The notes under the pieces were generated by a model that was not told where the DNA came from, did not search any database, and worked only from the letters and a program-made list of their open reading frames with translations. Position numbers and translations under genes: made by a program. A DNA stretch of 61,321 bases from Candidatus Rokuibacteriota bacterium (GTDB lineage Bacteria; Methylomirabilota; Methylomirabilia; Rokubacteriales; CSP1-6), in contig QHSX01000063.1 in NCBI GenBank assembly GCA_003221695.1, positions 1 to 61,321 of the forward strand. Direction: 5' to 3'. Position 1 is the first letter of the stretch. Each line of letters starts with the position of its first letter. Below, one piece after another: positions 4,185 through 61,321 of the stretch.

Positions 4185-4720
4185 GGCCTCCGGTCCGCTG
4201 AGATCGGGACCGGTGACGTCGGACGGCCGCCGGGGCCGGCAGGCTCGAGCGCCAACAGCACCTCCTTCGTGTAGATCATCCCGTCCCGGCTGTAGGAGGA
4301 GAACTCTAAAATGCCTGTGTCCATCCGGATCGCGTCTTCCGGACACGCCTCCACGCAGTAGCCGCAGAAGACGCACTTGCCCAGGTCGATGTCGAAGCGC
4401 GCGGGAACCTTCTCGATCTCCGGGTTCGGGTGCTCGTCCGCGACGATGTAGATGCAGCGCGCCGGGCACACGGTCTCGCACATCATGCACGCCACGCAGC
4501 GCGGCGAGCCGTCCTCGCGCCTCACGAGTCGGTGAAGCGAGCGCAGGCGTGGCGCGTACGGCCGACGCTCCTCGGGATACTGGATCGTCACCGCGCCCCG
4601 CGCGTCGACCCGACCGAGCGCGTGCGCGATGTGGCGGCCCAGATTGCGGAAGAAGTGGGCGGCCGTGAGACCGAGCCCCGAGAGCACCTCCGCGAGATAG
4701 AAGCGCTGCAGGACCTTCAC
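4181..4720 (-). CDS. nuoI: NADH-quinone oxidoreductase subunit I, two [4Fe-4S] (cluster 1)
   Basis: Ferredoxin-like 8Fe subunit, 179 aa, passing electrons from the peripheral arm toward NuoB. Two cluster motifs are visible: CVACMMCETVCP near residue 75 and CVFCGYCVEACP near residue 115. The GTG start at 4720 overlaps the nuoH stop (GTGA), and the stop overlaps the nuoJ start. Confidence 0.95.
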   Translation of the reverse strand: MKVLQRFYLAEVLSGLGLTAAHFFRNLGRHIAHALGRVDARGAVTIQYPEERRPYAPRLRSLHRLVRREDGSPRCVACMMCETVCPARCIYIVADEHPNPEIEKVPARFDIDLGKCVFCGYCVEACPEDAIRMDTGILEFSSYSRDGMIYTKEVLLALEPAGPGGRPTSPVPISADRRP

Positions 4721-5808
4721 GCGGGGCCTCCCCAGAGTAGGAGCCCGATCCCCGTGAGGACGATGTTCAGGACCGACAGCGGGAAGAGCCCGAGCCAGCC
4801 CAGCCGCATCGCCTGGTCGTAGCGGAAGCGGGGCAGCGTCCAGCGGACAAGCATCATGAAGAAGATCGTCGCACAAACCTTGGAGACGAACGCGCCTACC
4901 TGGAGGAGGACGACGAGCAGGTGGGGCAGCGCGACCGCTCCACCCCACGGGAACCGGAAGCCCTCCGCGACGAGGTAGGGGACCTGCCAGCCGCCGAGGA
5001 AGAGCGAGGTCGTCATCCCCGCGATGACCACGGTCTCGAGGAAGTCGGCCATCGCGAACATCCCGAACTTCATCCCGCTGTACTCGATGAAGTAGCCGAT
5101 GATCTCGGACTCGCCTTCCGGCGTGTCGAAGGGGATCCGCTTGGTGGCGGCGATGCCGGCCGTCAGGAAGAGGATGAACGCGAGCGGCTGGGTGACGATC
5201 CCCCAGGCCGGGAGCCACCCCCAGAAGAGGTGCCCCTGTACTCGCACGATGTCCTGCATGTTGAGCGAGCCCCCGATCATGACGATGCCCATGATCGAGG
5301 CGCCGATCGCGACCTCCGCGGAGATCATGAGGGCCGCCGCGCGCTGGCCACCCAGGAGCGCGAAGTTGTTCGCCGACGACCAGCCGGCCATCATCACGCC
5401 GTAGACGCCGAGCGAGAGCATCGCGAACACGTAGAGGATCCCGACGTTCAGCGTGACCGCCTGCAGCGGGATCTCACGCCCGGCCACGCGAAGCACGTCG
5501 CCGAAGGGGATCGACGCAAAGGCGACGAGCGCGCAGAAGACGGAGACGAACGGCGCCAGGCCGAACAGGAAGCGGTCGGCGCGCGCCGGGCGGAAGTCCT
5601 CCTTGGTGAGCATTTTGATCGCGTCGGCGAGGGGGTGGAACAGGCCCAACAGGCGGAACCCGAGGATCGACGCGCGGTTGGCCCCGATGCGGTCCTGCAT
5701 GATCGCCGACTGTTTGCGCTCCACCCAGGTGAGGAGCCCGCCCAGGTTGAGGACGAAGAGCATGACGAAGGCGACGCGTCCGAAGGCGATCGAGAGGTCC
5801 CCGATCAT
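4717..5808 (-). CDS. nuoH: NADH-quinone oxidoreductase subunit H (cluster 1)
   Basis: Membrane subunit linking the quinone site to the membrane arm, 363 aa, eight or so transmembrane helices. Conserved loops include ERKQSAIMQDRIGANRA, the acidic AADRFLFG-like region and RIPFDTPEGESEIIGYFIEY. The ATG at 5808 overlaps the nuoG stop (ATGA). An alternative upstream start would lie inside nuoG and is rejected. Confidence 0.95.
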   Translation of the reverse strand: MIGDLSIAFGRVAFVMLFVLNLGGLLTWVERKQSAIMQDRIGANRASILGFRLLGLFHPLADAIKMLTKEDFRPARADRFLFGLAPFVSVFCALVAFASIPFGDVLRVAGREIPLQAVTLNVGILYVFAMLSLGVYGVMMAGWSSANNFALLGGQRAAALMISAEVAIGASIMGIVMIGGSLNMQDIVRVQGHLFWGWLPAWGIVTQPLAFILFLTAGIAATKRIPFDTPEGESEIIGYFIEYSGMKFGMFAMADFLETVVIAGMTTSLFLGGWQVPYLVAEGFRFPWGGAVALPHLLVVLLQVGAFVSKVCATIFFMMLVRWTLPRFRYDQAMRLGWLGLFPLSVLNIVLTGIGLLLWGGPA

Positions 5809-7388
5809 GGGAGCTTGGCGCCTCCATCGCCGATCGATTGATAGGTGAGTCCCGCGAAGACAGGGACGGCGCCGGCCAGCTCGCGGAACCATCGCTCGGC
5901 CCGCGGCGCGCTGACCTCCACGCCGAGTGCCTGCAGCACGCGGCCCAGGATGTCCCATTCGGGGAGCGCCTGGCCCAGGGGCTCGACCGCCGCGCGGAAA
6001 CGCTGCACCCGACCCTCAAAATTGGTGTACGTCCCCTCGCGCTCCACCCAGGTGGCGGCCGGCAGGACCCAGTGGGCGCGCTCGCTCGTGGCGTTGGCGT
6101 TGGTCCCGGTGAAGATCAGGAGCGGGACCGCCCGCAGGGCGGCGTCGGTCTCGGCCGCGTCCCAGGCGCACTGGAGGAGGTCGTGGCCGAAGACCCAGAG
6201 GCACTTCACCACTCGGGCGCGGGCGGCGGCGAGGATGGCCGCGCCGTCGCCGTCGAGCCCGAGCAGCTCGGCGCCGCGGGAGTTCGGGTTCTTGTCGCCG
6301 CGGATCAGCACGGTATCCTCGTCGCCCGGCTCGCGCGGCGGCACGCGGAAGGCGACGCGCCGGATCCCGCGCTGCTCGAGCACGCGCCGCAAGGCCCAGA
6401 GATCCTCGTTCGCCATCTTCGGCGAGGCGACGACGCCGATCTCGTCCGGGGCGAAGCGGCGGAGCGCGCCGGCGACCGCCCCGATCGCCTCCTCCCACGT
6501 GGCGTCGCTCACCGCGCCGTCCTCGCGGCGGCTCGGGGCCAGGAGCCGAGTCTTGTCGTCCACGAACGCGAACCCGTAGCGGCCGGCGTCGCAGATCCAC
6601 CAGCGGTTGACGTCCGCGTTGAAGCGCGGCTTGAGGCGGGCCACGCGGCGCCCCTCGTTGTGGTGCGGGCGCCGGCGGTTCACGTGCACCTCGATGTTGC
6701 AGCCGCGCGCACACCCCGGGCAGATCGACGTCGCGCGCTCCAGATACCAGACGCGCACTGCGAAGCGGAAGTCGCGGTCGGTGAGGGCGCCCACCGGGCA
6801 GATGTCCACGACGTTGCCAGAGTACTTGTTGGCGAGCTCCGTCCCCGGGAAGAGCCCGATCTCCGAGTGATCGCCGCGATCGAAGATGCCGAGCTCCCCC
6901 GTGCGCGTGACCTCGTCGCAGAACCGCACACAGCGCGAGCAGAGGATGCACCGCTCCGCGTCCAGCATGACGTGCGGGCCGAGCGGCACGGCCTTCGGTT
7001 TGTGCACCTTCTCGTCCCGCATCCGCGGGTCGTAGAGGCCGTGCTGCATGTAGTAGATCTGGAGCCAGCACTCGCCCGCCTGGTCGCACACCGGACAGTC
7101 GAGCGGGTGGTTGATCAGGTGGAACTCCATGATCGACTTGCGCGTCTCCTTGACGCGGTCGGTCTCGGTCAGGACGACCATCCCGTCGACCGCCGGCGTG
7201 TTGCAGGCGATCGTGGGTCGTGGCGTCTTCTCGATGTCCACCATGCAGAGGCGGCACTGCCCGGCGATCGAGAGGCCGGGATGGTAACAGTAGTGCGGGA
7301 TCTCGACGCCGATCTTCCGCGCCGCCTCGATCAGGTTCGTCCCGGGCGGAACCTCGACCGCGTGGCCGTTGATCGTCAGGTTAGGCAT
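5805..7388 (-). CDS. nuoG: NADH-quinone oxidoreductase subunit G, short form (cluster 1)
   Basis: Iron-sulfur subunit of the NADH module, 527 aa. The N-terminal [2Fe-2S] domain has C-x10-C-x2-C (HYCYHPGLSIAGQCRLC) and a later ACNTP cysteine. It is followed by the His/Cys cluster (HPLDCPVCDQAGEC), two [4Fe-4S] motifs (CILCSRCVRFC, with CPVG), and a molybdopterin-type Fe4S4 domain start (SICPGCARGCNIEV). The C-terminal molybdopterin-like region is reduced compared with the roughly 700-900 aa of many NuoG proteins. All cluster ligands remain. Confidence 0.92.
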   Translation of the reverse strand: MPNLTINGHAVEVPPGTNLIEAARKIGVEIPHYCYHPGLSIAGQCRLCMVDIEKTPRPTIACNTPAVDGMVVLTETDRVKETRKSIMEFHLINHPLDCPVCDQAGECWLQIYYMQHGLYDPRMRDEKVHKPKAVPLGPHVMLDAERCILCSRCVRFCDEVTRTGELGIFDRGDHSEIGLFPGTELANKYSGNVVDICPVGALTDRDFRFAVRVWYLERATSICPGCARGCNIEVHVNRRRPHHNEGRRVARLKPRFNADVNRWWICDAGRYGFAFVDDKTRLLAPSRREDGAVSDATWEEAIGAVAGALRRFAPDEIGVVASPKMANEDLWALRRVLEQRGIRRVAFRVPPREPGDEDTVLIRGDKNPNSRGAELLGLDGDGAAILAAARARVVKCLWVFGHDLLQCAWDAAETDAALRAVPLLIFTGTNANATSERAHWVLPAATWVEREGTYTNFEGRVQRFRAAVEPLGQALPEWDILGRVLQALGVEVSAPRAERWFRELAGAVPVFAGLTYQSIGDGGAKLP

Positions 7389-7392
7389 GCGG

Positions 7393-8619
7393 CTATCTGG
7401 GTATCAGGGCCTCGAACTCGGCCCTGAACTTTTCGATGTACGAGACATAGGGCCCCACGGCGCCGTCGTAGAACGCACAGATCGTCGTCCCGGCGCCCCG
7501 GCGCGCCACATCCAGGATCGTATCCAGGTCGTCCTTCCGCCCTCGCCCCTCGACGATCCGGCGGACCATCTTGTAGATCCAGCCGGTCGACTCGCGGCAG
7601 GGCGTACACTGGCCGCAGCTCTCGTGGGCGTAGAACCGCGCGACGACCATCAACGCCTCGGGGATCGACACCGTCTCGTCCATCACGATCACGCCCGCCG
7701 AGCCCGCCATCGTGCCGGCGTTGCGGAGCCCGTCCACGTCCATCGTGACGTCGATCTCATCGCCGCGGAGGATCGCCGCCGACGAGCCGCCGGGGACGAC
7801 CGCCTTGAGTCGCCCGTTGCCCGTGACCCCGCCCGCCAGATCGTAGACGAGCTGGCGCAGCGTGATCGCCACCGAGGCTTCGTAGACCCCTGGTCGCGTC
7901 ACGCGCCCGGAGACCGAGTACATCCGCGTGCCGCCCTGGGTCTTGGTGCCGAGCGCCGCGAACCACGCGGCGCCCCGGGCGATGATGTGCGGCACGTGGC
8001 AGATCGTCTCCACGTTGTTCACGATCGTCGGCGCGCCGAAGGCGCCCTTGATCGCCGGAAAAGGAGGCTTCAGCTTTGGCCAGCCCTTCTTCCCTTCCAG
8101 CGAAGAGATCAGTCCGGTTTCTTCACCACAGATGTAGGCACCCGCGCCGCGATGGACCACGACGTCGAACCCCTTGCCGAGATACCCGGCGTCGTACGCC
8201 TCGCTCACCGCGGTCGCGAAGCGTCGATACGGCTCGACGTATTCCCCGCGGACGTAGACGAAGCCGGTCGCCGAGCGGATCGCCCGCGCAGCGATGAGCA
8301 TGCCTTCGATGACCGCGTGCGGGTCACGCTCGAGCAGGTAGCGGTCCTTGAACGTCCCGGGCTCGCCCTCGTCGGCGTTGATGACGAGGTAGACGGGTCC
8401 GCCGTGGCTCTTCGGGATGAACGACCACTTCGTCCCCGTCGGGAAGCCCGCGCCGCCGAGCCCGCGGAGGTTGGACTGCTTGACCTCCTCGGTGATCTCC
8501 GCGGGCGGGAGCGTCTGAGCCTTCTGCCAGGCGGTGTAGCCGCCGGTCTCGAGATACGCCTTGAGCGTGTGCGAGTCGGCGCGCGCGAAGTTGCGCGTGA
8601 GGATCTTCTCCGCCGTCAC
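7393..8619 (-). CDS. nuoF: NADH-quinone oxidoreductase subunit F (cluster 1)
   Basis: FMN and NADH-binding subunit, 408 aa. It has the glycine-rich NADH loop LRGLGGAGFPTGTKW, the FMN region GAGAYICGEETGLI, and the [4Fe-4S] ligands ESCGQCTPCREST plus a C-terminal TTICAF cysteine. The GTG start (VTAEKILTRNF) overlaps the nuoE stop as GTGA. The longer upstream reading only translates nuoE out of frame. Confidence 0.95.
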   Translation of the reverse strand: MTAEKILTRNFARADSHTLKAYLETGGYTAWQKAQTLPPAEITEEVKQSNLRGLGGAGFPTGTKWSFIPKSHGGPVYLVINADEGEPGTFKDRYLLERDPHAVIEGMLIAARAIRSATGFVYVRGEYVEPYRRFATAVSEAYDAGYLGKGFDVVVHRGAGAYICGEETGLISSLEGKKGWPKLKPPFPAIKGAFGAPTIVNNVETICHVPHIIARGAAWFAALGTKTQGGTRMYSVSGRVTRPGVYEASVAITLRQLVYDLAGGVTGNGRLKAVVPGGSSAAILRGDEIDVTMDVDGLRNAGTMAGSAGVIVMDETVSIPEALMVVARFYAHESCGQCTPCRESTGWIYKMVRRIVEGRGRKDDLDTILDVARRGAGTTICAFYDGAVGPYVSYIEKFRAEFEALIPR

Positions 8620-9131
8620 CGGAGACCCTCGAGGATCCGATCGACCTTCTCGGGCGTCAGGCCGAACTCGTAGCGGTCGTCGACTTGCATCATCGGCGCG
8701 TGCTCGCAGGCGCAGAGACACTCGACCGACTGCAGCGTCACCCGCCCATCGTCCGTGGTCTCGCCCACGTCGATGCCGAGCCGGCGCCGGAGGTGGGCCA
8801 CGATCATGGGCGCGCCGGCCAGGTGGCAGGAGAGGTTGTGGCAGACGGCGACGATGTGGCGGCCCTTCGGCGCGCGGAAGAACAGCGTGTAGAACGTCAC
8901 CACCTCGTGCACGTGGGCCGGCGTCAGGTCGAAGAGCGCGGCCACGTACGCCTCGACCTCGAGCGAGACGTAGCCGAACGTCTCCTGCGCCAGGTGGAGC
9001 ACGGGCAGGAGCGCCGCCCGCCGGTCCGGATAGAGCCCCTGGAGCCGGTGGACTTCTGCCAGCTGCTCGACAGAGAACGCGACGGGTGTAGAGGCGCGCG
9101 TGGCTGCGTCCGTCCCATCCTGTCCCCTCAT
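8616..9131 (-). CDS. nuoE: NADH-quinone oxidoreductase subunit E (cluster 1)
   Basis: Thioredoxin-fold [2Fe-2S] subunit of the NADH module, 171 aa. Ligand cysteines are seen in VCHNLSCHLAG and VECLCACEHAPMMQV. The start MRGQDGTD overlaps the nuoD stop (ATGA). The N-terminal 20 residues before FSVEQLAEV are probably a flexible tail. Confidence 0.94.
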   Translation of the reverse strand: MRGQDGTDAATRASTPVAFSVEQLAEVHRLQGLYPDRRAALLPVLHLAQETFGYVSLEVEAYVAALFDLTPAHVHEVVTFYTLFFRAPKGRHIVAVCHNLSCHLAGAPMIVAHLRRRLGIDVGETTDDGRVTLQSVECLCACEHAPMMQVDDRYEFGLTPEKVDRILEGLR

Positions 9132-10501
9132 CGGTCCAGCTCGCCGCCGATCATGTTCACCGAGCCGAACGTCGGGATGAGGTCCGCGACCATCCCGCCC
9201 TCGATCATCCGGTGGAGCGCCGCCATCGGCGGCAGGCACGGCGGCCGGCAGCGAACCCGGTACGGCCGGTCGCTGCCGTCGGACACGACATAGAAGCCGA
9301 GCTCGCCGTTCGCCCCCTCGACCGCGACGTACGCCTCGCCCTGCGGCGGCCGGATGCCGAAGCCCTCCATGATCAGCATGAAGTGGTTCATCAACCCCTC
9401 GATCGACCCGTACGTCGTCTCCTTCGGCGGCAGGACGACCCGCTTGTCGGCCGCGTTGACCCGATCGTGGGCGGGCCGCTCCGAGCCCTGGAGGTTGGGC
9501 GAGAGCGTGATCGGCACGAGGAGCAGCCCCTCCGTCTTGCCCTGCTTGCCCCGGTCCACGTACGCTGCGGGGTCGATCGGGCGCCCCGCGAAGTCCACGT
9601 TGATGGGGCCACCCGGAATCATCGCGAGCGCCTGCTCCACGATCCGCATCGACTGCTCCATCTCGGCCATGCGGACCAGGTACCGGGCGTAGTTGTCGCC
9701 GGCCTTCTGCGTCGGAATCTCGAACGCGAGCCGGTCGTACACGTCGTAGGGCTGTGCCCGCCGCACGTCGTAAGGGACGCCGACCGCGCGGAGCAGCGGG
9801 CCCGTGATCGCGTACGCGATCGTCTCCTCGCGGCTGAGGGCGCCCACGCCGATCATGCGATCCATGAAGATGCGGTTGCCCGTCAGGAGGCGGTGGACCT
9901 CGTCGAGGACCTCACGCGTCTCCTTGAAGGCCTTGGCCGCCCGCTCGGCGAAGCCGTCGGGCAGGTCCGCCTTGACACCGCCGACGCGCCCGTACGAGAT
10001 CGTGAGCCGCGCGCCCGTCACGTCCTCGACCAGCTCCCACAGGTACTCGCGCGCCTTGATCATGTAGAGGAAGACCGTGAACGCCCCGAGCTCCATCGCC
10101 GAGGCGCCGATGCACGTGAGGTGGTCGCAGACGCGCGAGATCTCCGCCATGATGACGCGGATGTACTTGCACCGCTCGCTGACGTCGATCCCCAGGAGCT
10201 TCTCCACCGCGGCGCAGTACCCGAAGTTGTTGATGAGGGGCGAGACGTAGTTGAGCCGGTCGGTGTACGGGATCGCGTTGTTGTAGCCGCCCTGCTCGCA
10301 GTCCTTCTCGAACGCGCGGTGGAGGTACCCGATCTCGACGTCGGCGCGGACGATGACCTCGCCGTCGAGCTCGGTCACGATCCGGATGATCCCGTGCATG
10401 GCCGGGTGCGCCGGCCCCACACCGACGTGCAGGCGCTGGCTCCCGCTGCCGGTGCCGCTCCCCTCGCCCAGCATGAATTCGCGTCGTGTCATCTCCGCCA
10501 T
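9128..10501 (-). CDS. nuoD: NADH-quinone oxidoreductase subunit D (cluster 1)
   Basis: 49-kDa homologue forming the quinone site with NuoB, 457 aa, derived from [NiFe]-hydrogenase large subunits. It contains HVGVGPAHPAMHGIIRI and a conserved carboxy-terminal region ending NMIGGELDR. The N-terminal extension of about 20 residues is Gly/Ser-rich. It starts 8 nt after nuoC. Confidence 0.95.
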   Translation of the reverse strand: MAEMTRREFMLGEGSGTGSGSQRLHVGVGPAHPAMHGIIRIVTELDGEVIVRADVEIGYLHRAFEKDCEQGGYNNAIPYTDRLNYVSPLINNFGYCAAVEKLLGIDVSERCKYIRVIMAEISRVCDHLTCIGASAMELGAFTVFLYMIKAREYLWELVEDVTGARLTISYGRVGGVKADLPDGFAERAAKAFKETREVLDEVHRLLTGNRIFMDRMIGVGALSREETIAYAITGPLLRAVGVPYDVRRAQPYDVYDRLAFEIPTQKAGDNYARYLVRMAEMEQSMRIVEQALAMIPGGPINVDFAGRPIDPAAYVDRGKQGKTEGLLLVPITLSPNLQGSERPAHDRVNAADKRVVLPPKETTYGSIEGLMNHFMLIMEGFGIRPPQGEAYVAVEGANGELGFYVVSDGSDRPYRVRCRPPCLPPMAALHRMIEGGMVADLIPTFGSVNMIGGELDR

Positions 10502-30610: not shown

Positions 30611-32137
30611 TCAGAACCCCACGATCCGCGCCAGCAAGGGCAGGGTCGCCGTGTCGACCGGGGCGATCGCGAGCCCGGGCACCATGCCGAAGAGCACGAG
30701 CACCGTGACGAGGAGCACGAGCGCGACCCACTCGGGGCCGCGCGCGTCCTCCAGGTGCTGGAAGTGTGGCGAGGGCGGCCCCCAGAAGATCTGCTTGGCG
30801 ACCCGCAGCACGTAGACCGCCGTGAGGAACGTGCCCGCGACCGCCGGAAAGAGCCACCAGCGGTGGTCCGAGCGCCACGCTCCGAGGAAGGTCAGTAGCT
30901 CCGCGATGAACCCGGCCGTCGCGGGCAGGCCGAGCGACGAGAGGCTGCCCATCGTGAACGCGGTCGCAATGCCCGGCATCACCGCGCCGAAGCCGCCCAT
31001 CTTGCCGATCTCGCGCGAGTGCGCCTTCTCGTAGACGAGGCCGACGAGCGCGAAGAAGAGACCCGTCATCACCCCGTGGGCGAACATCTGGAACACCGAG
31101 CCGTTGAGCCCGGTCTCGGTGAGCGTCGCCGCGCCGAGCATGACGATCCCCATATGCGAGACGGAGGAATACGCGATGACGTACTTGAGATCCGTCTGCG
31201 CCATCGCGGAGAGCGCCCCGTACACGATGTTCACGCACGCGATCGTGCCCATGAGCCACGCGAGCTCCACCGCGCCGCTCGGGAGGAGCCCCATGCCCAA
31301 GCGCACGACCCCGTAGGCGCCGAGCTTCATCAGCACGCCCGCGTGGAGCATCGACACCGCCGTCGGCGCCGACGCGTGCCCGTCCGGCGACCACGTGTGC
31401 AGCGGCCAGATGCCGGCGAGCACGCCAAAGCCCACGTAGAAGGCGAGGAAGACCCAGCGCTGGACCGCGGGCGCGAACGACACGCCCTCGAGGTCCACGA
31501 ACGAGAAGGACGAGGCGCCGGCGTTGACGTAGAGGGCGAAGATGCCGACGAGGATGAACGCCGACCCGAAGAGGAGGTACAGGGTGAGCTTCATCGCCGC
31601 GTATTCTTTCGTGCCGACGCCGGTCTCCCGGTACGCCCACGCAAAAATGCCGCGCGGGCGGATCTCGCCGCTCGAGCCCCACACCCCGATCAGCAGGTAC
31701 ATCGGGAGGACGGCGAGCTCGTAGAACAAGAAGAACACGAAGAGGTCGAGCGCGACGAAGACGCCGAACACGCCCGTGACGAGCGCCAGCAGCAGCGCGT
31801 AGAACTCCTGGCTGCGAACGGTGACCGTCCACGACGCGAAGACGCCGGCGAAGATGATCACCGCCGTCAGCAACACCAGGAGCAGGCTGATCCCGTCCAC
31901 ACCGAGCTCGTAGGAGATGCCGAGCGGCGGAACGAGCGGGACCTTCTCGTAGAACTGGAAGCCCGCCGCGTCGCGGTCGTAGACGGCGTAGAGCCAGAGC
32001 GCGCCGACCATCGAGACGCCGGTCGTCGCGACCGCGATCAGCCGCACCGCGAGCGGGCGGTAGCGGGCCGTGAACATGATGAGGAGAGCGCCGGCGAAGG
32101 GCGACCACGTGATGAGCGACAGGACCGGCACCGTCAT
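30611..32137 (-). CDS. nuoM: NADH-quinone oxidoreductase subunit M (cluster 2)
   Basis: Antiporter-like pump subunit, 508 aa. Conserved features include FFLFYELAVLPMYLLIGVWG, the WPLHTWSPDGHASAPTAVSM loop and DLKYVIAYSSVSHMG. The ATG at 32137 overlaps the nuoL stop (ATGA). Confidence 0.95.
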   Translation of the reverse strand: MTVPVLSLITWSPFAGALLIMFTARYRPLAVRLIAVATTGVSMVGALWLYAVYDRDAAGFQFYEKVPLVPPLGISYELGVDGISLLLVLLTAVIIFAGVFASWTVTVRSQEFYALLLALVTGVFGVFVALDLFVFFLFYELAVLPMYLLIGVWGSSGEIRPRGIFAWAYRETGVGTKEYAAMKLTLYLLFGSAFILVGIFALYVNAGASSFSFVDLEGVSFAPAVQRWVFLAFYVGFGVLAGIWPLHTWSPDGHASAPTAVSMLHAGVLMKLGAYGVVRLGMGLLPSGAVELAWLMGTIACVNIVYGALSAMAQTDLKYVIAYSSVSHMGIVMLGAATLTETGLNGSVFQMFAHGVMTGLFFALVGLVYEKAHSREIGKMGGFGAVMPGIATAFTMGSLSSLGLPATAGFIAELLTFLGAWRSDHRWWLFPAVAGTFLTAVYVLRVAKQIFWGPPSPHFQHLEDARGPEWVALVLLVTVLVLFGMVPGLAIAPVDTATLPLLARIVGF

Positions 32138-33963
32138 CGCGGCCACCACTGCGACCAGACGAAGAGCAGCAGCACGCCGAACGCGACGCCGTAGACGTAG
32201 TCCTGCGCGTGCCCGCTCTGGATGTGCCGCAGCAGGTCGCCGCCGCGCAGCGTCCACGCGCTCAGGAAGTTCAGGACACCGTCCACGAGGTAGCGGTCGA
32301 TCCACCCGATCAGGCGTGAGAAGCTGAGGAGGAAGCCCCGGTAGAGGCCGGCGTAGAGCGTGTCGAGACCGTAGCGGCGGCGCGCGAGGAGGTCGACCAC
32401 CGAGAACGGGAACGTCGCGGCCAGGCCGCCGGGGTCGACCACGCCGCGCTGGTACGTGGCCCAGGCGAGCGCGATCCCGCCGAGCGCGGCCGCCACCGAC
32501 AGCGGTGCGAGCCACCCGGGGCCGTGGTGGGCGCCGACGTCCCCGAGCGCGAGCCGGAGACCCACGAGGACGGTGAGGGCCGCGAGGACCCAGAGCGGGG
32601 CGCGCATCGTCCAGGACGGGTCGTGCGGGTGGCCGGCCGCGGGCGCCCGGCCGAAGAACGTGAGGAAGACGACGCGGAACATGTAGAAGGCGGTCAGGAG
32701 CACCGTGAGCGCGAGCATGAGGAACGGTCCGGTCATGTCCGCCTCCCAGACGCCGGCGAGGATCGCCTCCTTGGAGAAGAAGCCGGCGAGCGGCGGGAAC
32801 CCGGCGAGCGCGAGCGTGCCGACGATGAAGACGACGCCGGTCTGTGGCATGGCGCGGAAGAGCCCGCCCATCCGGAAGATGTCGTTGGTCCCGACCGCGT
32901 GGATCACGGCGCCCGCGCCCAGGAACAGGAGCGCCTTGAACAGGCCGTGCGTCAGGAGGTGGAGGAAACCCGCGTCCGGGGCGCCGGCGCCGGCCGCGGC
33001 CATCATGTACCCGAGCTGTGAGACCGTCGAGTACGCGAGGACGCGCTTGATGTCGCTCTCCACGCACGCCATCGTCGCCGCCAGGAGCGCCGTGAAGGCG
33101 CCGACCCAGCCGATGAGCGCCAGGACGTCGGGGACCAGGGCGAAGAGCGGCTGCGCACGCGTGACCATGAAGACCCCCGCGGTGACCATCGTCGCGGCGT
33201 GGATCAGCGCGGAGACCGGCGTGGGTCCCTCCATCGCGTCCGGGAGCCATACGTGCAACGGGAACTGGGCCGACTTGCCGACCGCGCCCAGGTAGATCAG
33301 GAACATGATCGTCCCGAGCCCCTCGATCGCCAGCGCGTGCTCCTGCGCCAGCGCGAACAGCACGCGGAACTCGAACGTGTCCGTGGCGGCCCACAGCATG
33401 ACGATTCCGATGACGAAGCCGAGGTCGCCGAGCTTGGTGATCCAGAAGGCCTTCACCGCTGCGCGCGCCGCGGTCGGGCGCGCGTACCAGTAGCCGATCA
33501 GGAGGTACGAGCAGAGGCCCACCAGCTCCCAGAACACGAACATCTGGATGAAGGACGGCGAGAGCACGAGCCCCAGCATGGAGAACGCGAAGAGCGACTG
33601 GAACGTGTAGTACCGCCCGAGCGACGGCGGCCGCTCGTCGTGGAGGTACGCGAGCGAGTAGATCTGCACGAGGAGCGAGACGAGCGTGACCAGCACGAGC
33701 ATCGCGTTGGCGAGCGGGTCCACCAGCACGCCGACGGTCGCCGTGGGGCCATCGTCGGCCGGAATCCAGGTCCACGTCGCCTCGCGCGTGAATCCCACAC
33801 TCCACACGAGCACGGCGCCGAGGAAGGCCGCCGCGATCGCCGCGATCGAGACGGCGCCCGCCGCCCGCCCCGCGCGACGCAGCGGGGCCACGACCGCGAG
33901 CAGGACGAAGCTCGCGAACGGGAGTCCCAGGACAAGGACCGGCAGCCAGACGGTCGCGTCCAT
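32134..33963 (-). CDS. nuoL: NADH-quinone oxidoreductase subunit L (cluster 2)
   Basis: Distal pump subunit with the lateral amphipathic helix, 609 aa. Motifs include FVFWELVGLCSYLLIGYW, FPLHVWLPDAMEGPTPVSAL and DIKRVLAYSTVSQLGYM. It follows nuoK by 4 nt. This is the only nuoL in the window, although there are two complex I loci. Confidence 0.95.
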   Translation of the reverse strand: MDATVWLPVLVLGLPFASFVLLAVVAPLRRAGRAAGAVSIAAIAAAFLGAVLVWSVGFTREATWTWIPADDGPTATVGVLVDPLANAMLVLVTLVSLLVQIYSLAYLHDERPPSLGRYYTFQSLFAFSMLGLVLSPSFIQMFVFWELVGLCSYLLIGYWYARPTAARAAVKAFWITKLGDLGFVIGIVMLWAATDTFEFRVLFALAQEHALAIEGLGTIMFLIYLGAVGKSAQFPLHVWLPDAMEGPTPVSALIHAATMVTAGVFMVTRAQPLFALVPDVLALIGWVGAFTALLAATMACVESDIKRVLAYSTVSQLGYMMAAAGAGAPDAGFLHLLTHGLFKALLFLGAGAVIHAVGTNDIFRMGGLFRAMPQTGVVFIVGTLALAGFPPLAGFFSKEAILAGVWEADMTGPFLMLALTVLLTAFYMFRVVFLTFFGRAPAAGHPHDPSWTMRAPLWVLAALTVLVGLRLALGDVGAHHGPGWLAPLSVAAALGGIALAWATYQRGVVDPGGLAATFPFSVVDLLARRRYGLDTLYAGLYRGFLLSFSRLIGWIDRYLVDGVLNFLSAWTLRGGDLLRHIQSGHAQDYVYGVAFGVLLLFVWSQWWPR

Positions 33964-45335: not shown

Positions 45336-45421
45336 GCCGGAGTGTCGGAACGGAAGACGATGGCGTCTCAAAAGCGCCTGCCCGTAAGGGCGTGCGGGTT
45401 CGAATCCCGCCTCCGGCACCA
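45336..45421 (+). tRNA. tRNA-Leu (anticodon CAA)
   Basis: An 86-nt class II tRNA with encoded CCA. Acceptor GCCGGAG pairs with CTCCGGC, the anticodon loop is CTCAAAA, the variable arm is GCCCGTAAGGGC, and the T arm is GCGGGTTCGAATCCCGC. Confidence 0.95.
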
Positions 45422-45467: not shown

Positions 45468-46604
<1,137 letters not shown>

Positions 46605-54228: not shown

Positions 54229-57039
54229 ATGATCCCTTTGGTGGCGCTCGTCCTCACGCTCGTCACGACGGTTTCCGTCGCCCTCGCCCAGCAAGGCAGG
54301 CCCGACACGCAGGCTTTCCTCGTCAAAGACATCAATGACACCTTCGACACCGCCGCCGGCTCCTCGCCGGGCCCATTCGTAGAGGCCGGCGGCGCCGTCT
54401 TCTTCATCGCCGATGACGGGACCAGCCCCGCGCTGTGGCGGACCGACGGGACGCCGGCCGGCACCGTGATGGTCAAGGCCGTGGGCGGCCGTACCCACAG
54501 CCTCTTCAACTTCAACGGCACGCCCTACTTCGTCTCCCAGTTTTCCCCATTCTCCCAGGACACGAGCGACAAGCTCTGGAAGAGCGACGGGACGGCCGAA
54601 GGCACCGTGCTCGTGGCGGGAGACAGCGGCTCGCAGCCCCCTCGGCCCACATTCTTCAGCGGGTTCACGGTCGTGAATGACACGATATTCTTCGTCAGCA
54701 AGTTCGACATTCAGTGGAGTCTCTGGAAGAGCGACGGGACACCCGCGGGGACCGTGAGGATCCGGACCTGGTGTTGCTGGTCCCCCTCCAACCTTACCGC
54801 CGTCGGCGGCACGCTCTTCTTCACCCAACTTCGCCCCGACATCGGCGTCGGCATCGAGCTCTGGAAGAGCGACGGGACGACCGAGGGGACCGTGCTGGTC
54901 AAGGACATCAATCCTGGGGCCGGCTCCTCCGGTCCCTCGAATCTCACCGACGTCAACGGCACCCTCTTCTTCAGGGCGTTCCGCCCCGACACCGGCACCG
55001 AGCTCTGGAAGAGCGACGGGACGGCTGAGGGCACCGTGCTCGTCAAGGACATCAATCCCGGGGCCGCCTCCTCCGGCCCCTCTAACCTGACCAACGTCAA
55101 CGGCACGCTCTTCTTCACGGCGTTCCGCCCCGACACCGGCTACGAGCTGTGGAAGAGCGACGGGACCGAGCAGGGCACCGTGCTCGTCAAGGACATCGAG
55201 CCCGGGGCGGGCTCCTCCTCCCCCGGCAACCTCGCCAACGTCAAGGGGACCCTGATGTTCTCGGCCCTCCAGGCGGGCACGGGCAGAGAGCTCTGGCGGA
55301 GCGACGGGACGCCCGACGGCACCGTGCTGGTCAAGGACATCGTGTCGGGGAACAGCTCGTCGTCGCCAGCCGCCCTCACCGCTGTCGGTGGCACGCTCTT
55401 CTTCACGGCCTCTGACTCCGGCACTGGCACCGAGCTCTGGAAGAGCGACGGGACGGAGGCCGGTACCGTGCTCGTCAGGGACATCCACCCGGGCCCCGGC
55501 GACTCCAACCCCACCACCCTCACCAGCGGCATGGGCAAGCTCTTTTTCTCGGCATCGCCGCCGAGCACCGGCAGCGAGCCGTGGACCAGCGACGGGACAG
55601 AGGCCGGCACCGTGCTCCTCAAAGACATCAACCCCGGGGCAGGGTCGTCGTACCCGAGCGGCCTGGTCCGGGTCAACAAGACCTTGTTCTTCACAGCCTC
55701 TCGCCCCGACACCGGCCGCGAGTTGTGGAAGAGCGACGGGACCGAGGCCGGCACCGTCCTCGTCAAGGACATCGTCCCGGGGCCGGGGTCCGGCGCGGGG
55801 TCCGGCCCTGGATTTCTCACCGCGGTCAACGGCACCCTCTTCTTCACGGTCTATCACTACTCAGGTGACGTGCTGTGGAAGAGCGACGGGACCGAGGCCG
55901 GCACCGTCCTCGTCAAGGACATCTACCAGGGGGGGCCGCAAGGGTCCTGGATCAGCAATCTCACCGCGGTCAACGGCACCCTCTTCTTCACCGACTTCCA
56001 CCGGGACACCGGCTGGGAGGTGTGGAAGAGCGACGGGACCGACGCCGGCACCGCGCCCCTCAAGGACATCGTCCCGGGGCCCGGCTCGTCCTACCCCGGA
56101 AATCTCATCGAGGTCAACGGCACCCTCTTCTTCAGCGCGTTCCACCCGGACACCGGCAGCGAGCTCTGGAAGAGCGACGGGACCGAGGCCGGCACGGTCC
56201 TGGTCAGGGACATCAATCCCGGACCCGCCGGATCCGGCCCCTACAACCTCACCAATGTCAACGGCACCCTCTTCTTCACCGCCTTTCGTCCCGAGACCGG
56301 CTACGAGTTGTGGAAGAGCGACGGGACCGAGCAGGGCACCGTGCTCGTCAAGGACGTCACTCCGGGGCCGGACTCGTCCGGCGCGACGCCGCTCATCGGT
56401 GTCAACGGTGTCCTCTTCTTCAGAACCTCGAACCCGCTGGGGCTGTGGAGGACCGATGGCACCGAGGCAGGCACGGCACTGATCCGGGAGGGCATCTTTC
56501 CCCTAGGGCCCTCCTACCCGAACCGCTGTGGGGGTGGCCTCGCCGCGGTGAATAACCTTCTGGTGTTCGTCGTGCAACGTGGCGCGTGCGAGCTGTGGAG
56601 GAGCGACGGCGTCACGGCGGACTTCCTCATCGAGCTTCCTGGGGCCGGGAACGCCCTCAGGATGGTGAGCGGCCTCGTGCTGTTCAGCGTGTACGACAGC
56701 GCCCATGGCCGCGAGCTGTGGGCGACCGACGGCACGAGCGTGGGCATGGTCCAGGATATCGCCCCCGGCCCGGCCTGGTCCTCGCCGAGCTCCTTTACCC
56801 CGGTCGGGCCTCTCGTGTTCTTCCAGGCGAACGACCACGTCACGGGCGCCGAGCTGTGGGCGATGTCGAAATCGGCCATTCACCGGACGCTGAACCTGCC
56901 CGAGCCCAGCCCCGATGTCGCCGCCCAGGAAGGACCGTCACCCAAACGGCGCGAGCCCGCCAACGAATCCCGGGCGTTTCTGCCGGCCTTCGAGGACGAC
57001 CCTGACGAGCTCGTCGCGTCCGAGCGCGAGACTCCCTGA
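54229..57039 (+). CDS. Exported ELWxxDGT-repeat protein 1
   Basis: A 936-aa protein with signal peptide residues 1-20 (MIPLVALVLTLVTTVSVALA). The rest is about 17 repeats of roughly 47-50 residues, each with ELWKSDGTxxGTVLVKDI, GSSxPxNLT and NGTLFFTA. This is the ELWxxDGT repeat family, probably beta-propeller or beta-helical and cell-surface or secreted. The last repeat degenerates (ELWAMSKSAIH). A 50-residue charged tail absent from protein 2 follows (SPDVAAQEGPSPKRREPANE). Function unknown. Confidence 0.88.
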   Translation: MIPLVALVLTLVTTVSVALAQQGRPDTQAFLVKDINDTFDTAAGSSPGPFVEAGGAVFFIADDGTSPALWRTDGTPAGTVMVKAVGGRTHSLFNFNGTPYFVSQFSPFSQDTSDKLWKSDGTAEGTVLVAGDSGSQPPRPTFFSGFTVVNDTIFFVSKFDIQWSLWKSDGTPAGTVRIRTWCCWSPSNLTAVGGTLFFTQLRPDIGVGIELWKSDGTTEGTVLVKDINPGAGSSGPSNLTDVNGTLFFRAFRPDTGTELWKSDGTAEGTVLVKDINPGAASSGPSNLTNVNGTLFFTAFRPDTGYELWKSDGTEQGTVLVKDIEPGAGSSSPGNLANVKGTLMFSALQAGTGRELWRSDGTPDGTVLVKDIVSGNSSSSPAALTAVGGTLFFTASDSGTGTELWKSDGTEAGTVLVRDIHPGPGDSNPTTLTSGMGKLFFSASPPSTGSEPWTSDGTEAGTVLLKDINPGAGSSYPSGLVRVNKTLFFTASRPDTGRELWKSDGTEAGTVLVKDIVPGPGSGAGSGPGFLTAVNGTLFFTVYHYSGDVLWKSDGTEAGTVLVKDIYQGGPQGSWISNLTAVNGTLFFTDFHRDTGWEVWKSDGTDAGTAPLKDIVPGPGSSYPGNLIEVNGTLFFSAFHPDTGSELWKSDGTEAGTVLVRDINPGPAGSGPYNLTNVNGTLFFTAFRPETGYELWKSDGTEQGTVLVKDVTPGPDSSGATPLIGVNGVLFFRTSNPLGLWRTDGTEAGTALIREGIFPLGPSYPNRCGGGLAAVNNLLVFVVQRGACELWRSDGVTADFLIELPGAGNALRMVSGLVLFSVYDSAHGRELWATDGTSVGMVQDIAPGPAWSSPSSFTPVGPLVFFQANDHVTGAELWAMSKSAIHRTLNLPEPSPDVAAQEGPSPKRREPANESRAFLPAFEDDPDELVASERETP

Positions 57040-57065
57040 TGGACGTCCACAAGGGAGGACCAGCG

Positions 57066-59792
57066 ATGCTGATCTCTCGAAAGGCGTGCACTGTTGTTGT
57101 CACGCTCATCGTGACGCTCGTGACGACGGTCTCGGTGGCCCTCGCCCAGCAAGGACGGCCGGACACGCAGGCCTTCCTCGTCAAGGACATCGACGACTCC
57201 TTCAACACCGCCGCCGGCTCGTCGCCGGGGCCATTCGTCGAGGCTGGCGGGACCGTCTTCTTCACGGCCAATGACGGGACCAGCGCGGGGCTGTGGCGGA
57301 CCGACGGGACGGCGGCCGGCACCGTGATGGTCAAGGCCCTCGGCGCCCACGACCTCACCAACGTCAACGGCACGCTCTTCTTCGCCTCCGGCTTCTCTCC
57401 CTTTTCCACTTTTGGAAGCGACAGGCTCTGGAAAAGCGACGGGACGGCCGCGGGGACCGTGCTCGTGGTGGGAGACAGCTTGCAGCCCCCTCCGCCCTTG
57501 CGCTTCAGCGGGTTCACCGCCGTAAATGGCACGTTGTTCTTCGTCCAAGATCTCGATCGGCTCTTTTCGCTCTGGAGGAGCGACGGGACGGCCGCGGGCA
57601 CCGTGGGGATCGCGAACACGAAATTTTTTCGCCCGTCCAATCTGACCGCCGTCGGCAGCACGCTCTTCTTCACGCTCCTTCGCCCTGACATCGGCCTCGG
57701 CACCGAGCTCTGGAAGAGCGACGGGACGACTGAGGGGACGGTGCTGGTCAAGGACATCAATCCTGGGGCCGGCAACTCCTTGCCCTCGAGTCTCACCAAC
57801 GTCAATGGCACCCTTTTCTTCGCGGCCTTCCACCCCGACCTCGGCACCGAGCTCTGGAAGAGCGACGGGACGGAAGCGGGGACGGTGCTGGTCAAGGACA
57901 TCAGTCCCGGGGCCGCCTCCTCCGGCCCCTCCAACCTCACCAACGTCAACGGCACCCTCTTCTTCGCCGCCTTCCGCCCCGAGACCGGGTACGAGCTGTG
58001 GAAGAGCGACGGGACCGAGCAGGGCACCGTGCTCGTCAAGGACATCGAGCCCGGCGCCGGCTCCTCCTCCCCCGGCAACCTCGCCAACGTCAACGGGGCC
58101 CTGATGTTCTCGGCCTTCCAGGCGGGCACGGGCCGAGAGCTGTGGCGGAGCGATGGAACGGCCGAGGGCACCGTGCTCGTCAAGGACATCGCCCCGGGGG
58201 ACGGCGATTCGTCGCCCGCCGCTCTCACCGCCGTCGGCGGCACGCTCTTCTTCACGGCCTCCGGCGTCGGCACCGGCATCGAGCTCTGGAAGAGCGACGG
58301 GACCGAGCAAGGCACCGTGCTCGTCAAGGACATCAGTGCAGGGCCCGGCGACTCCAGTCCGTTGAACCTCGCCAGCCGCATCGGCAAGCTCTTCTTCTCG
58401 GCGTCTCAGCCGAGCACCGGCCGCGAGCCGTGGACCAGCGACGGCACGGAGGCCGGCACCGTGCTCCTCAAAGACATCAACCTCGGAGCGGGCTCGTCGA
58501 GCCCGGACAACCTGGTCAGGGTCGGCAACACTCTGTTCTTCGCAGCCTCCACGCCGCAGGCCGGCCGCGAGCTGTGGAAGAGCGACGGAACCGAGCAGGG
58601 CACCGTGCTGGTCAAGGACATCGTTCCCGGGGCCGGCTCGTCCGCTCCGGACTGGCTCACCCGGGTCGGGAGGACCCTGTTCTTCAAGGCCACTCACCCC
58701 GACACCGGCACGGAGCTGTGGAAGAGCGACGGGACGGAGGCTGGCACCGTGCTCGTCAAGGACATTGTCCCGGGGCCGGGCTCGTCCTCCGTCCGCGACC
58801 TCACCGAGGTCAACGGCACCCTGTTCTTCGCCGCGTTCCTACCCGACACCGGCTGGGAACTGTGGAAGAGCGACGGGACGGAGGCTGGCACCGTGCTCGT
58901 CAAGGCCATCGGCGTGGGTGAGCTCGTGAATGTCAACGGCACCCTCTTCTTCAGCGCCTTCCAACCGGACACCGGCAGCGAACTCTGGAAGAGCGACGGG
59001 ACGGAGGCCGGCACGGTCCTGGTCAAAGACATCAGCCCGGGGCCATTAAACTCCAGCCTAACGGGACTGATCAATGTCGGTGGGACCATCTTCTTCAACG
59101 CCATACAGCGGAACGCCCTCTACCACCCTGAGTCGAACACCGGCTATGAGCTATGGAAGAGCGATGGGACGGAGGCGGGCACCGTGCTCGTCAAGGACAT
59201 CGTCCCCGGGCCCGGCTCGTCCGACGTGACTCCGCTCATCGGCATCAACGGCGTCCTCTTCTTCAGCACCATCGACGGCGGATTGTGGAGGAGCGATGGA
59301 ACCGAAGCGGGGACATGGCTGCTTCGGGAGCACATTCTTCCGGGTGGCGGGTTGTCATGTGGCGATGGCTTCGCCGCCGTGAACGGCACCCTGGTGTTTG
59401 CCGCGAGGGATGAGAACGGGTGCGAGCTGTGGAGGAGCGACGGCGTCACGGCGGACCTCCTCATGGACATCAATCCGGGACCGGGCAGTTCGATGTGGCG
59501 GCGGTTCGGGGTCGTGGCTCAGTTCAGGTCAGTGAGCGGCCTGGTGCTGTTCAGCGCTTACGACGACGCCCATGGTTTCGAGCTGTGGGCGACCGACGGC
59601 ACGAGCAACACGGGCATGGTCGAGGATATCGCCGTCGGCCCGGGCTGGTCCTCGCCGAGTTCCTTCACACCGGTCGGGTCTCTCGTGTTTTTCACGGCGA
59701 ACGACGGCATGACAGGCACCGAGCTGTGGGCGATCTCGCGATCGGCCATTCACCGGGCGCTGAATCTTCCCCAGCCCAAAGCCGGTCCCTGA
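57066..59792 (+). CDS. Exported ELWxxDGT-repeat protein 2
   Basis: A 908-aa paralogue of protein 1 with the same signal-peptide end (LVTTVSVALAQQGRPDTQAF), about 17 repeats and the same degenerate final unit (ELWAISRSAIH), then a short tail. ATG 57066 is preferred because GGGAGG lies 8 nt upstream. An earlier ATG at 57039 overlaps the stop of protein 1 (TGATG) and would add a nonhydrophobic leader. The 3' end overlaps the convergent Cys-rich gene by 43 bp. Confidence 0.87.
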   Translation: MLISRKACTVVVTLIVTLVTTVSVALAQQGRPDTQAFLVKDIDDSFNTAAGSSPGPFVEAGGTVFFTANDGTSAGLWRTDGTAAGTVMVKALGAHDLTNVNGTLFFASGFSPFSTFGSDRLWKSDGTAAGTVLVVGDSLQPPPPLRFSGFTAVNGTLFFVQDLDRLFSLWRSDGTAAGTVGIANTKFFRPSNLTAVGSTLFFTLLRPDIGLGTELWKSDGTTEGTVLVKDINPGAGNSLPSSLTNVNGTLFFAAFHPDLGTELWKSDGTEAGTVLVKDISPGAASSGPSNLTNVNGTLFFAAFRPETGYELWKSDGTEQGTVLVKDIEPGAGSSSPGNLANVNGALMFSAFQAGTGRELWRSDGTAEGTVLVKDIAPGDGDSSPAALTAVGGTLFFTASGVGTGIELWKSDGTEQGTVLVKDISAGPGDSSPLNLASRIGKLFFSASQPSTGREPWTSDGTEAGTVLLKDINLGAGSSSPDNLVRVGNTLFFAASTPQAGRELWKSDGTEQGTVLVKDIVPGAGSSAPDWLTRVGRTLFFKATHPDTGTELWKSDGTEAGTVLVKDIVPGPGSSSVRDLTEVNGTLFFAAFLPDTGWELWKSDGTEAGTVLVKAIGVGELVNVNGTLFFSAFQPDTGSELWKSDGTEAGTVLVKDISPGPLNSSLTGLINVGGTIFFNAIQRNALYHPESNTGYELWKSDGTEAGTVLVKDIVPGPGSSDVTPLIGINGVLFFSTIDGGLWRSDGTEAGTWLLREHILPGGGLSCGDGFAAVNGTLVFAARDENGCELWRSDGVTADLLMDINPGPGSSMWRRFGVVAQFRSVSGLVLFSAYDDAHGFELWATDGTSNTGMVEDIAVGPGWSSPSSFTPVGSLVFFTANDGMTGTELWAISRSAIHRALNLPQPKAGP

Positions 59793-60780: not shown

Positions 60781-60918
60781 TCAGATCGTGATGTCGTTGG
60801 CGAGCTTCGCCGGCTCCACGATGAGGCGTGACCGGCTGGGGGCAAGGGCGCTGAGCGCCGTGAGCACGAGCGCCATGGTCACCACCACGGCGAGACTGAT
60901 GGAACGGATCCTCGTCAT
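60781..60918 (-). CDS. 45-residue exported small protein
   Basis: ATG 60918 follows a GGAGGAG Shine-Dalgarno. The product MTRIRSISLAVVVTMALVLT continues ALSALAPSRSRLIVEPAKLA and ends NDITI. One hydrophobic segment with a possible signal-peptide cleavage after SALA would leave about 20 residues. It lies 29 nt before the Cys-rich secreted protein on the same strand, so the two probably form a unit. Function unknown. Confidence 0.62.
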   Translation of the reverse strand: MTRIRSISLAVVVTMALVLTALSALAPSRSRLIVEPAKLANDITI

Positions 60919-61112
60919 CTCTCCTCCAATGTTTTCGGCCCGCGCGGCGTGCGCCGGGCCGTGTTCGGAGTGGTTACAGTCCTCTGGTTAGCAGCCCCCT
61001 GCGCTTCTGCGCAATTCGGAGAACCACGGAATGGGCGGGCGGCGCGTCCCGGAATGCAGCGGGGAGATCCCCTTCGTCGCGCGCGGTATGATACGGAGGA
61101 CCGAGGCGCCCG

Positions 61113-61321
61113 ATGGCCATCCTCTATAACAAGAACGGCTGACCGACCTGCACCAAGGCGAGAGAGGATCTCTCGCGGCGTGGCGTCGCCTACGAGAACC
61201 GCCTGGTGGAGCAGGCGCCGGTCGGCCGCGCGGCGACGCTCGCGCTGGCCCGCGGCGCCCGGCGCATGGTCGCGAAGGTGGGCGATACGCTCGTGCGTCT
61301 GGACGCGCCCTTTACCGACGC
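61113..61321 (+). CDS. Candidate selenocysteine-containing glutaredoxin-like protein (3' end off window)
   Basis: ATG 61113 follows GGAGGA (61096-61101). The reading is MAILYNKNG, then TGA (61140-61142), then PTCTKAREDLSRRGVAYENR and on to the window end without another stop. The TGA falls exactly where the first active-site cysteine of a thioredoxin/glutaredoxin CxxC would be, giving U-P-T-C. The surrounding beta-strand and helix pattern (ILYNKNG-U, TKAREDLSRRG) is that of glutaredoxin-like proteins. A downstream hairpin fits a bacterial SECIS. Translation as a Sec protein needs SelA/B/C/D elsewhere in the genome. Confidence 0.82.
61140..61176 (+). promoter_or_regulatory. Putative bacterial SECIS element
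   Basis: 61158-61164 (GCGAGAG) pairs perfectly with 61170-61176 (CTCTCGC), leaving the 5-nt loop AGGAU. The loop lies 23-27 nt after the UGA and presents two G residues near its start. Known bacterial SECIS hairpins sit just downstream of the UGA, inside the coding region, with a guanine-bearing small apical loop. Confidence 0.75.

Follow-up and report, generated by a model that had tools for sequence, protein, structure and literature searches.

A reading frame near the end of a contig from Candidatus Rokubacteria (Methylomirabilota) meets an in-frame TGA at its tenth codon and continues without a further stop as far as the sequence goes. Does this TGA end a decaying gene, or is it translated as selenocysteine (Sec)? 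The conserved frame and TGA, a covarying SECIS hairpin, the Sec machinery of the genome, replacement of Sec by Cys in homologues and the predicted fold support a model in which UGA 61140-61142 is a Sec codon in a true selenoprotein gene, to which we assign a probability of about 0.96.

An in-frame TGA in a truncated gene

The window analyzed is the entire contig C16 (61,321 nt) of a 4.6-Mb genome assembled in 109 contigs. The features discussed below are as follows.

61095..61106, plus strand: ribosome-binding region, GGAGG 61095-61099 and GAGG 61103-61106 5′ of the ATG (read from the sequence)
61113..61321, plus strand: 5′ part of the probable selenoprotein gene, from its frame and homologues; 69 codons seen of about 109-125, the 3′ end being lost to the contig end
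61140..61142, plus strand: TGA codon read as Sec10, the N-terminal redox residue of U-P-T-C, from homologues and Sec machinery
61149..61151, plus strand: TGC codon of Cys13, the putative resolving cysteine of UxxC
61158..61176, plus strand: bSECIS hairpin, 8-bp stem GCGAGAGA/TCTCTCGC (arms 61158-61165/61169-61176), loop GGA

An earlier note on this DNA had described a frame open on both sides of the TGA, a proper Shine-Dalgarno sequence and U-P-T-C at the position of a CxxC motif. The sequence bears this out: ATG 61113 opens the frame, TGA is codon 10, positions 61143-61321 are open to the contig end, and the GAGG and GGAGG elements upstream are Shine-Dalgarno-like. Cys13 is invariant in the homologue alignment (A1). 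With TGA as U, the product reads MAILYNKNGUPTCTKAREDLSRRGVAYENRLVEQAPVGRAATLALARGARRMVAKVGDTLVRLDAPFTD. The full-length homologues L028/L057 have 109 aa, and complete homologues overall about 109-125 aa. A search of the other contigs of the same assembly for the 3′ half found none; judging from orthologues, it would add about 40 codons and end like ...GDLLVRGYTEELYREAL.

Other open frames cover the same stretch (60915-61319, minus; 60949-61320, plus), as is usual at such G+C, yet conservation among homologues follows the TGA-containing frame. Past the TGA, changes relative to the nearest relative, L028, are distributed 2/5/13 over codon positions 1/2/3 (13/20 at the third position), and those relative to L030 10/8/24. 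This third-position excess is the pattern expected of a translated frame.

The TGA is conserved among homologues

Three same-genus orthologues (74-84% identity) have TGA at the same codon. Homologues were present in 37/60 relatives, with a single in-frame TGA in all but one. When 95 genomes of the phylum were searched with a profile, 37 strong matches (>85 bits) were obtained; 35 of them contain one TGA, and the two in G014 and G083 contain none. The earlier note had suggested looking for Cys or U at this position: 35/37 strong homologues have TGA, 2/37 have Cys, and no unrelated residue occurs.

These counts bear on the simplest alternative, namely that a glutaredoxin-like gene is decaying and has acquired an ordinary nonsense mutation, or that TGC, TGT or TGG was misread in sequencing. 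That this copy is known as a contig-end fragment alone, and that standard annotation would stop at the TGA, would be in keeping with such an origin. However, the TGA is common to dozens of separately assembled genomes from several families, a pattern that no read error in one contig could produce, and its conservation in relatives likewise rules out a nonsense mutation; random decay had already been judged a poor explanation in the earlier note. The protein-level constraint on the downstream frame, the covarying hairpin 3′ of the TGA and the Sec machinery in the genome (see below) also argue against this alternative, whose probability we regard as negligible.

The two Cys homologues, L094 and L095, share the motif ILYDxxCDCPxSELARRAL, with Cys directly before the conserved Pro in place of Sec. 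Compared with UPTC, their CDCPxS has Ser for the resolving Cys and gains a Cys two positions N-terminal to the catalytic residue. The SECIS hairpin is lost as well, with CGG/CGC and ACG/GCC codons at the stem positions. In the tree, the two group together (100/100) and are nested in the Sec-containing clade, which points to one Sec-to-Cys change; forks around the clade have moderate support (82-84). Because Sec became Cys while the second UxxC Cys and the SECIS were lost and a new Cys appeared upstream, the clade is a clean natural experiment. Many sister genomes with SelB lack the gene, so the lineage can do without it.

A covarying hairpin lies downstream of the TGA

The hairpin at 61158-61176 covers the A-R-E-D-L-S codons, with 15 nt between UGA and stem and 23 nt between UGA and loop. 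Its geometry conforms to the bSECIS constraints given in a 2026 review, namely a loop of 3-9 nt, a stem of 4-16 bp, G in the first two loop positions and a distance of 16-37 nt from the UGA (PMC13188914). Among 1360 TGA triplets on both strands of the window, only TGA 61140-61142 satisfies the hairpin-spacing rule. The local RNA fold has a z score of -2.25.

The register is identical in 29/29 TGA homologues examined, and every hairpin examined has a G-G-N or G-U-N loop. Across 22 distinct hairpins, pairing holds in 92.6% of cells vs 79% in shuffles, and double-sided changes occupy 24 cells vs 8.2, a value reached in 0/500 shuffles; since related sequences can beat shuffles without any structure, a slide control and the codon evidence weigh more. 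The covariation signal broke down when the partner was shifted by 1-3 columns. The numbers of distinct covarying pairs (4) and of pair types (9) are not extreme, being reached in 72 and 76 of 500 shuffles, and 7/22 hairpins lack the outermost pair, which is weak. Codon choice in the stem makes selection at the nucleotide level visible. The Arg codon of A-R-E is AGA or AGG in 29/29 genes vs 22/308 elsewhere in the same genes (p=2e-28, which overstates independence as the rows are related), and stem Leu and Ser are encoded by CTC and TCG in 29/29.

A hairpin in the same register with other bases is found in related selenoprotein genes of the phylum, of the NF041106 type and a Uxx-star/YruB-type glutaredoxin (for example, GCGCAAGA-GTT-TCTTGCG, ACGCAAGG-GTT-CCTTGCG and GCGAAAGA-GTT-TCTTTCG). 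A hairpin in exact register across related redoxin families, written in codons that run against the genes' own bias, provides a sharp search pattern for selenoproteins of this phylum, and has already pointed to another candidate in the genome, at C6:131381 (see below).

The genome encodes the Sec machinery

The earlier note had named selA, selB, selD and a tRNA-Sec as genes to look for, and all four are present. The tRNA-Sec scores 69.8 bits (cut-off 47) and is called tRNA-SeC with anticodon UCA by ARAGORN. On C52, it forms a cluster with SelA (588.6 bits) and SelB (373.3 bits) that lies between about 11.8 and 16.5 kb. SelD (337.1 bits) is located on C35 and has a TGA of its own at the classical catalytic position, TSYATCAGUASKM, which serves as an internal positive control. 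SelB-family matches were obtained in 60/60 relatives, above the cut-off in 55.

The open frame past the TGA would also be expected if UGA were read as another amino acid, through natural suppression to Trp or Cys or a changed genetic code. However, many of these genes, among them L028 and L032, end at a true TGA stop, indicating that UGA is not globally reassigned and ruling out an altered code. Suppression is at odds with the tRNA-Sec carrying a UCA anticodon, with a position that is otherwise Cys alone and never Trp, and with Cys homologues that lack the hairpin. We therefore attach almost no weight to decoding as another amino acid.

Under the selenoprotein model, UGA 61140-61142 would be decoded by SelB and tRNA-Sec, directed by the coding-region hairpin just downstream. 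Sequence comparisons predict actual insertion of Sec at residue 10.

The predicted fold resembles those of ArsC and Spx

The earlier description of the gene as glutaredoxin-like holds for the N-terminal half alone, which matches Pfam glutaredoxin PF00462 (28.7-30.8 bits, cut-off 22.9); the full-length homologues are instead ArsC/Spx-like and closest to NF041106. Four other models scored below their cut-offs. NF041212 (Uxx-star) gave 38.9 bits with the fragment and 43.5 with a full-length orthologue (cut-off 66). Complete Sec homologues reached 38.6-50.7 bits against NF041106 (cut-off 85) with near full-length coverage. PF03960 ArsC gave 15.9 bits over residues 6-105 (cut-off 24), and TIGR01617 Spx/MgsR 17.3 bits (cut-off 75).

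An AlphaFold2 model built with nine family sequences (pLDDT 92.5, pTM 0.86) contains the core of a thioredoxin fold: strand E2-6, the redox residue at position 10 and helix H11-22 directly after it. The elements follow in the order strand, redox helix, strand, helix, two extra strands and a helix, and a final hairpin and helix. Foldseek against the PDB placed Spx and ArsC-like chains first and glutaredoxins and NrdH next, and a sequence-profile comparison pointed the same way (2m46, 1rw1, Spx). The predicted fold is thus thioredoxin-type with an ArsC/Spx-like insert. Spx/ArsC-like structures (PDB 3l78, 1z3e, 3gkx, 1rw1, 2m46) are thioredoxin-type as well and have the insert after the redox helix and before the last β hairpin, but identity is 14-22% with a TM of about 0.5-0.6, the Arg-Pro motif is missing here and Sec replaces Cys.

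The nearest named family is NF041106, 'ArsC family (seleno)protein', which corresponds to the 'Arsenate reductase-like protein' with UxxC listed in the review (PMC13188914). The two share a length of about 107-110 aa, the full-length architecture and UxxC at the same place, and the NF041106 member in the same genome (L065, C4:22012, 131 bits) has a SECIS in the same register. The present family differs in scoring below the 85-bit cut-off, in its 28% identity to L065 and in its own side of the branch: in the tree it is split from NF041106 members, including the in-genome one, with 99/97 support. It is therefore a sister family of NF041106 without a model of its own in NCBIfam. Uxx-star (NF041212) also has Sec at the N-terminal position of a glutaredoxin-type motif and gives the best N-terminal match (43.5 bits), but its model has 70 positions and lacks the insert that brings our protein to about 110 aa. 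Sec-containing glutaredoxins, which appear as PF00462 UxxC selenoproteins in Table 1 of the review (PMC13188914), have the glutaredoxin-like N-terminal half and UxxC in common with it; however, the PF00462 match spans the first 35-45 residues alone and the C-terminal half differs.

Proposed function

Fold and motif suggest that the protein is most likely a UxxC thiol/selenol oxidoreductase. Sec10, at the N-terminus of the first helix, would attack a disulfide or other oxidized substrate, and Cys13 would resolve the adduct, releasing the substrate from Sec10 through a selenenylsulfide. This redox chemistry of the Sec10/Cys13 pair is that predicted from the fold and the motif.

The same selenoprotein might instead have another job: in place of a general redoxin, it could be a genuine ArsC arsenate reductase, or the transcription regulator Spx, in Sec form. 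Spx and ArsC-like chains are the best structural and full-length sequence matches, and the closest full-length NCBIfam model bears the ArsC name. However, the Arg-Pro motif of ArsC and Spx, which has a role in arsenate binding, is Val-Pro here (FLRVPVL), as in redoxins. Given this replacement and the Pfam ArsC score below cut-off, an arsenate reductase label is not justified, the Spx/MgsR score is far from its cut-off, and clustered neighborhoods show no recurring neighbor; we consider an ArsC or Spx role unlikely. Inspection of gene neighborhoods at eight loci, with neighbors compared by clustering, found no consistent partner; the most populous cluster is made up of frames that overlap the gene itself or run antisense to it. 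More speculative still, and in our view improbable, is a Sec-containing redox switch with a Spx-like fold, in which the Sec-Cys pair would sense oxidants and alter how the protein binds a partner, for example RNA polymerase. The gene would then encode a Sec-containing regulator instead of the general reductase that we favor.

Relation to known selenoproteins

Sec-containing ArsC/glutaredoxin-like UxxC proteins have been known since marine metagenome surveys (PMC2398784), and the gene described here is a new branch of them. The 2026 review counts 119 prokaryotic selenoprotein families and subfamilies and mentions 63 selenoproteins predicted in a Methylomirabilota MAG (PMC13188914); the richness of the phylum in selenoproteins is thus already known, and the present family may be among the predictions for that MAG, unnamed there. 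Among the papers searched for Rokubacteria selenoproteins, none described this gene. Our analysis adds a selenoprotein family that is spread through an uncultured phylum and missed by present NCBIfam models. As these models do not call the family, annotation probably cuts its members down to fragments or overlooks them.

Other selenoprotein genes

The genome contains further genes with an in-frame TGA. L001 (C35:101909, also given as C35:101933) encodes a Uxx-star/YruB glutaredoxin with TUGPC that scores above the TIGR02196 and NF041212 cut-offs. L003 (C84, about 37000) is a PDO thioredoxin with TUPYC (TIGR02187 PDO, 260 bits). L065, also given as C4:22027, has GUNSC, and the SelD gene, L022 (C35, about 113900), has GUASK. 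Formate dehydrogenase was considered as an additional selenoprotein and rejected, since the one match above cut-off lacks an in-frame stop.

L126/L002 (C6:131381) is a probable selenoprotein, RFYYRPG-U-SSCAKTKELLSSWGVEF, in which a USSC glutaredoxin-like domain starts a longer protein. A SECIS-like hairpin lies 3′ of its TGA, and the Pfam match begins after the TGA. A SECIS model search of the genome matched this site weakly (E = 0.015); the three strongest matches of the model are the sequences from which it was built and give no independent support. L106, L108 and L115 form a further Sec-containing ArsC-like branch (YQKPTUTSCVKGRAVLSRR...) that is long in the tree; L106 has the variant hairpin GGGAGGGC-GGT-GCTCTCCC.

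Other genes in the window

Complex I (NADH dehydrogenase) subunits, namely NADHdh, Nqo3-like and 49 kDa subunits and, some 22 kb away, an antiporter-like subunit, are encoded on the minus strand at 4720-10501 and 32137-33963. Two neighboring tRNA genes occupy 45336-45418 and 45468-45540 on the plus strand. Adjacent large genes at 54229-57036 and 57039-59789 (plus strand; 936 and 917 aa) look like a tandem pair, and their matches are weak PQQ_2/BamB-like β-propeller ones alone.
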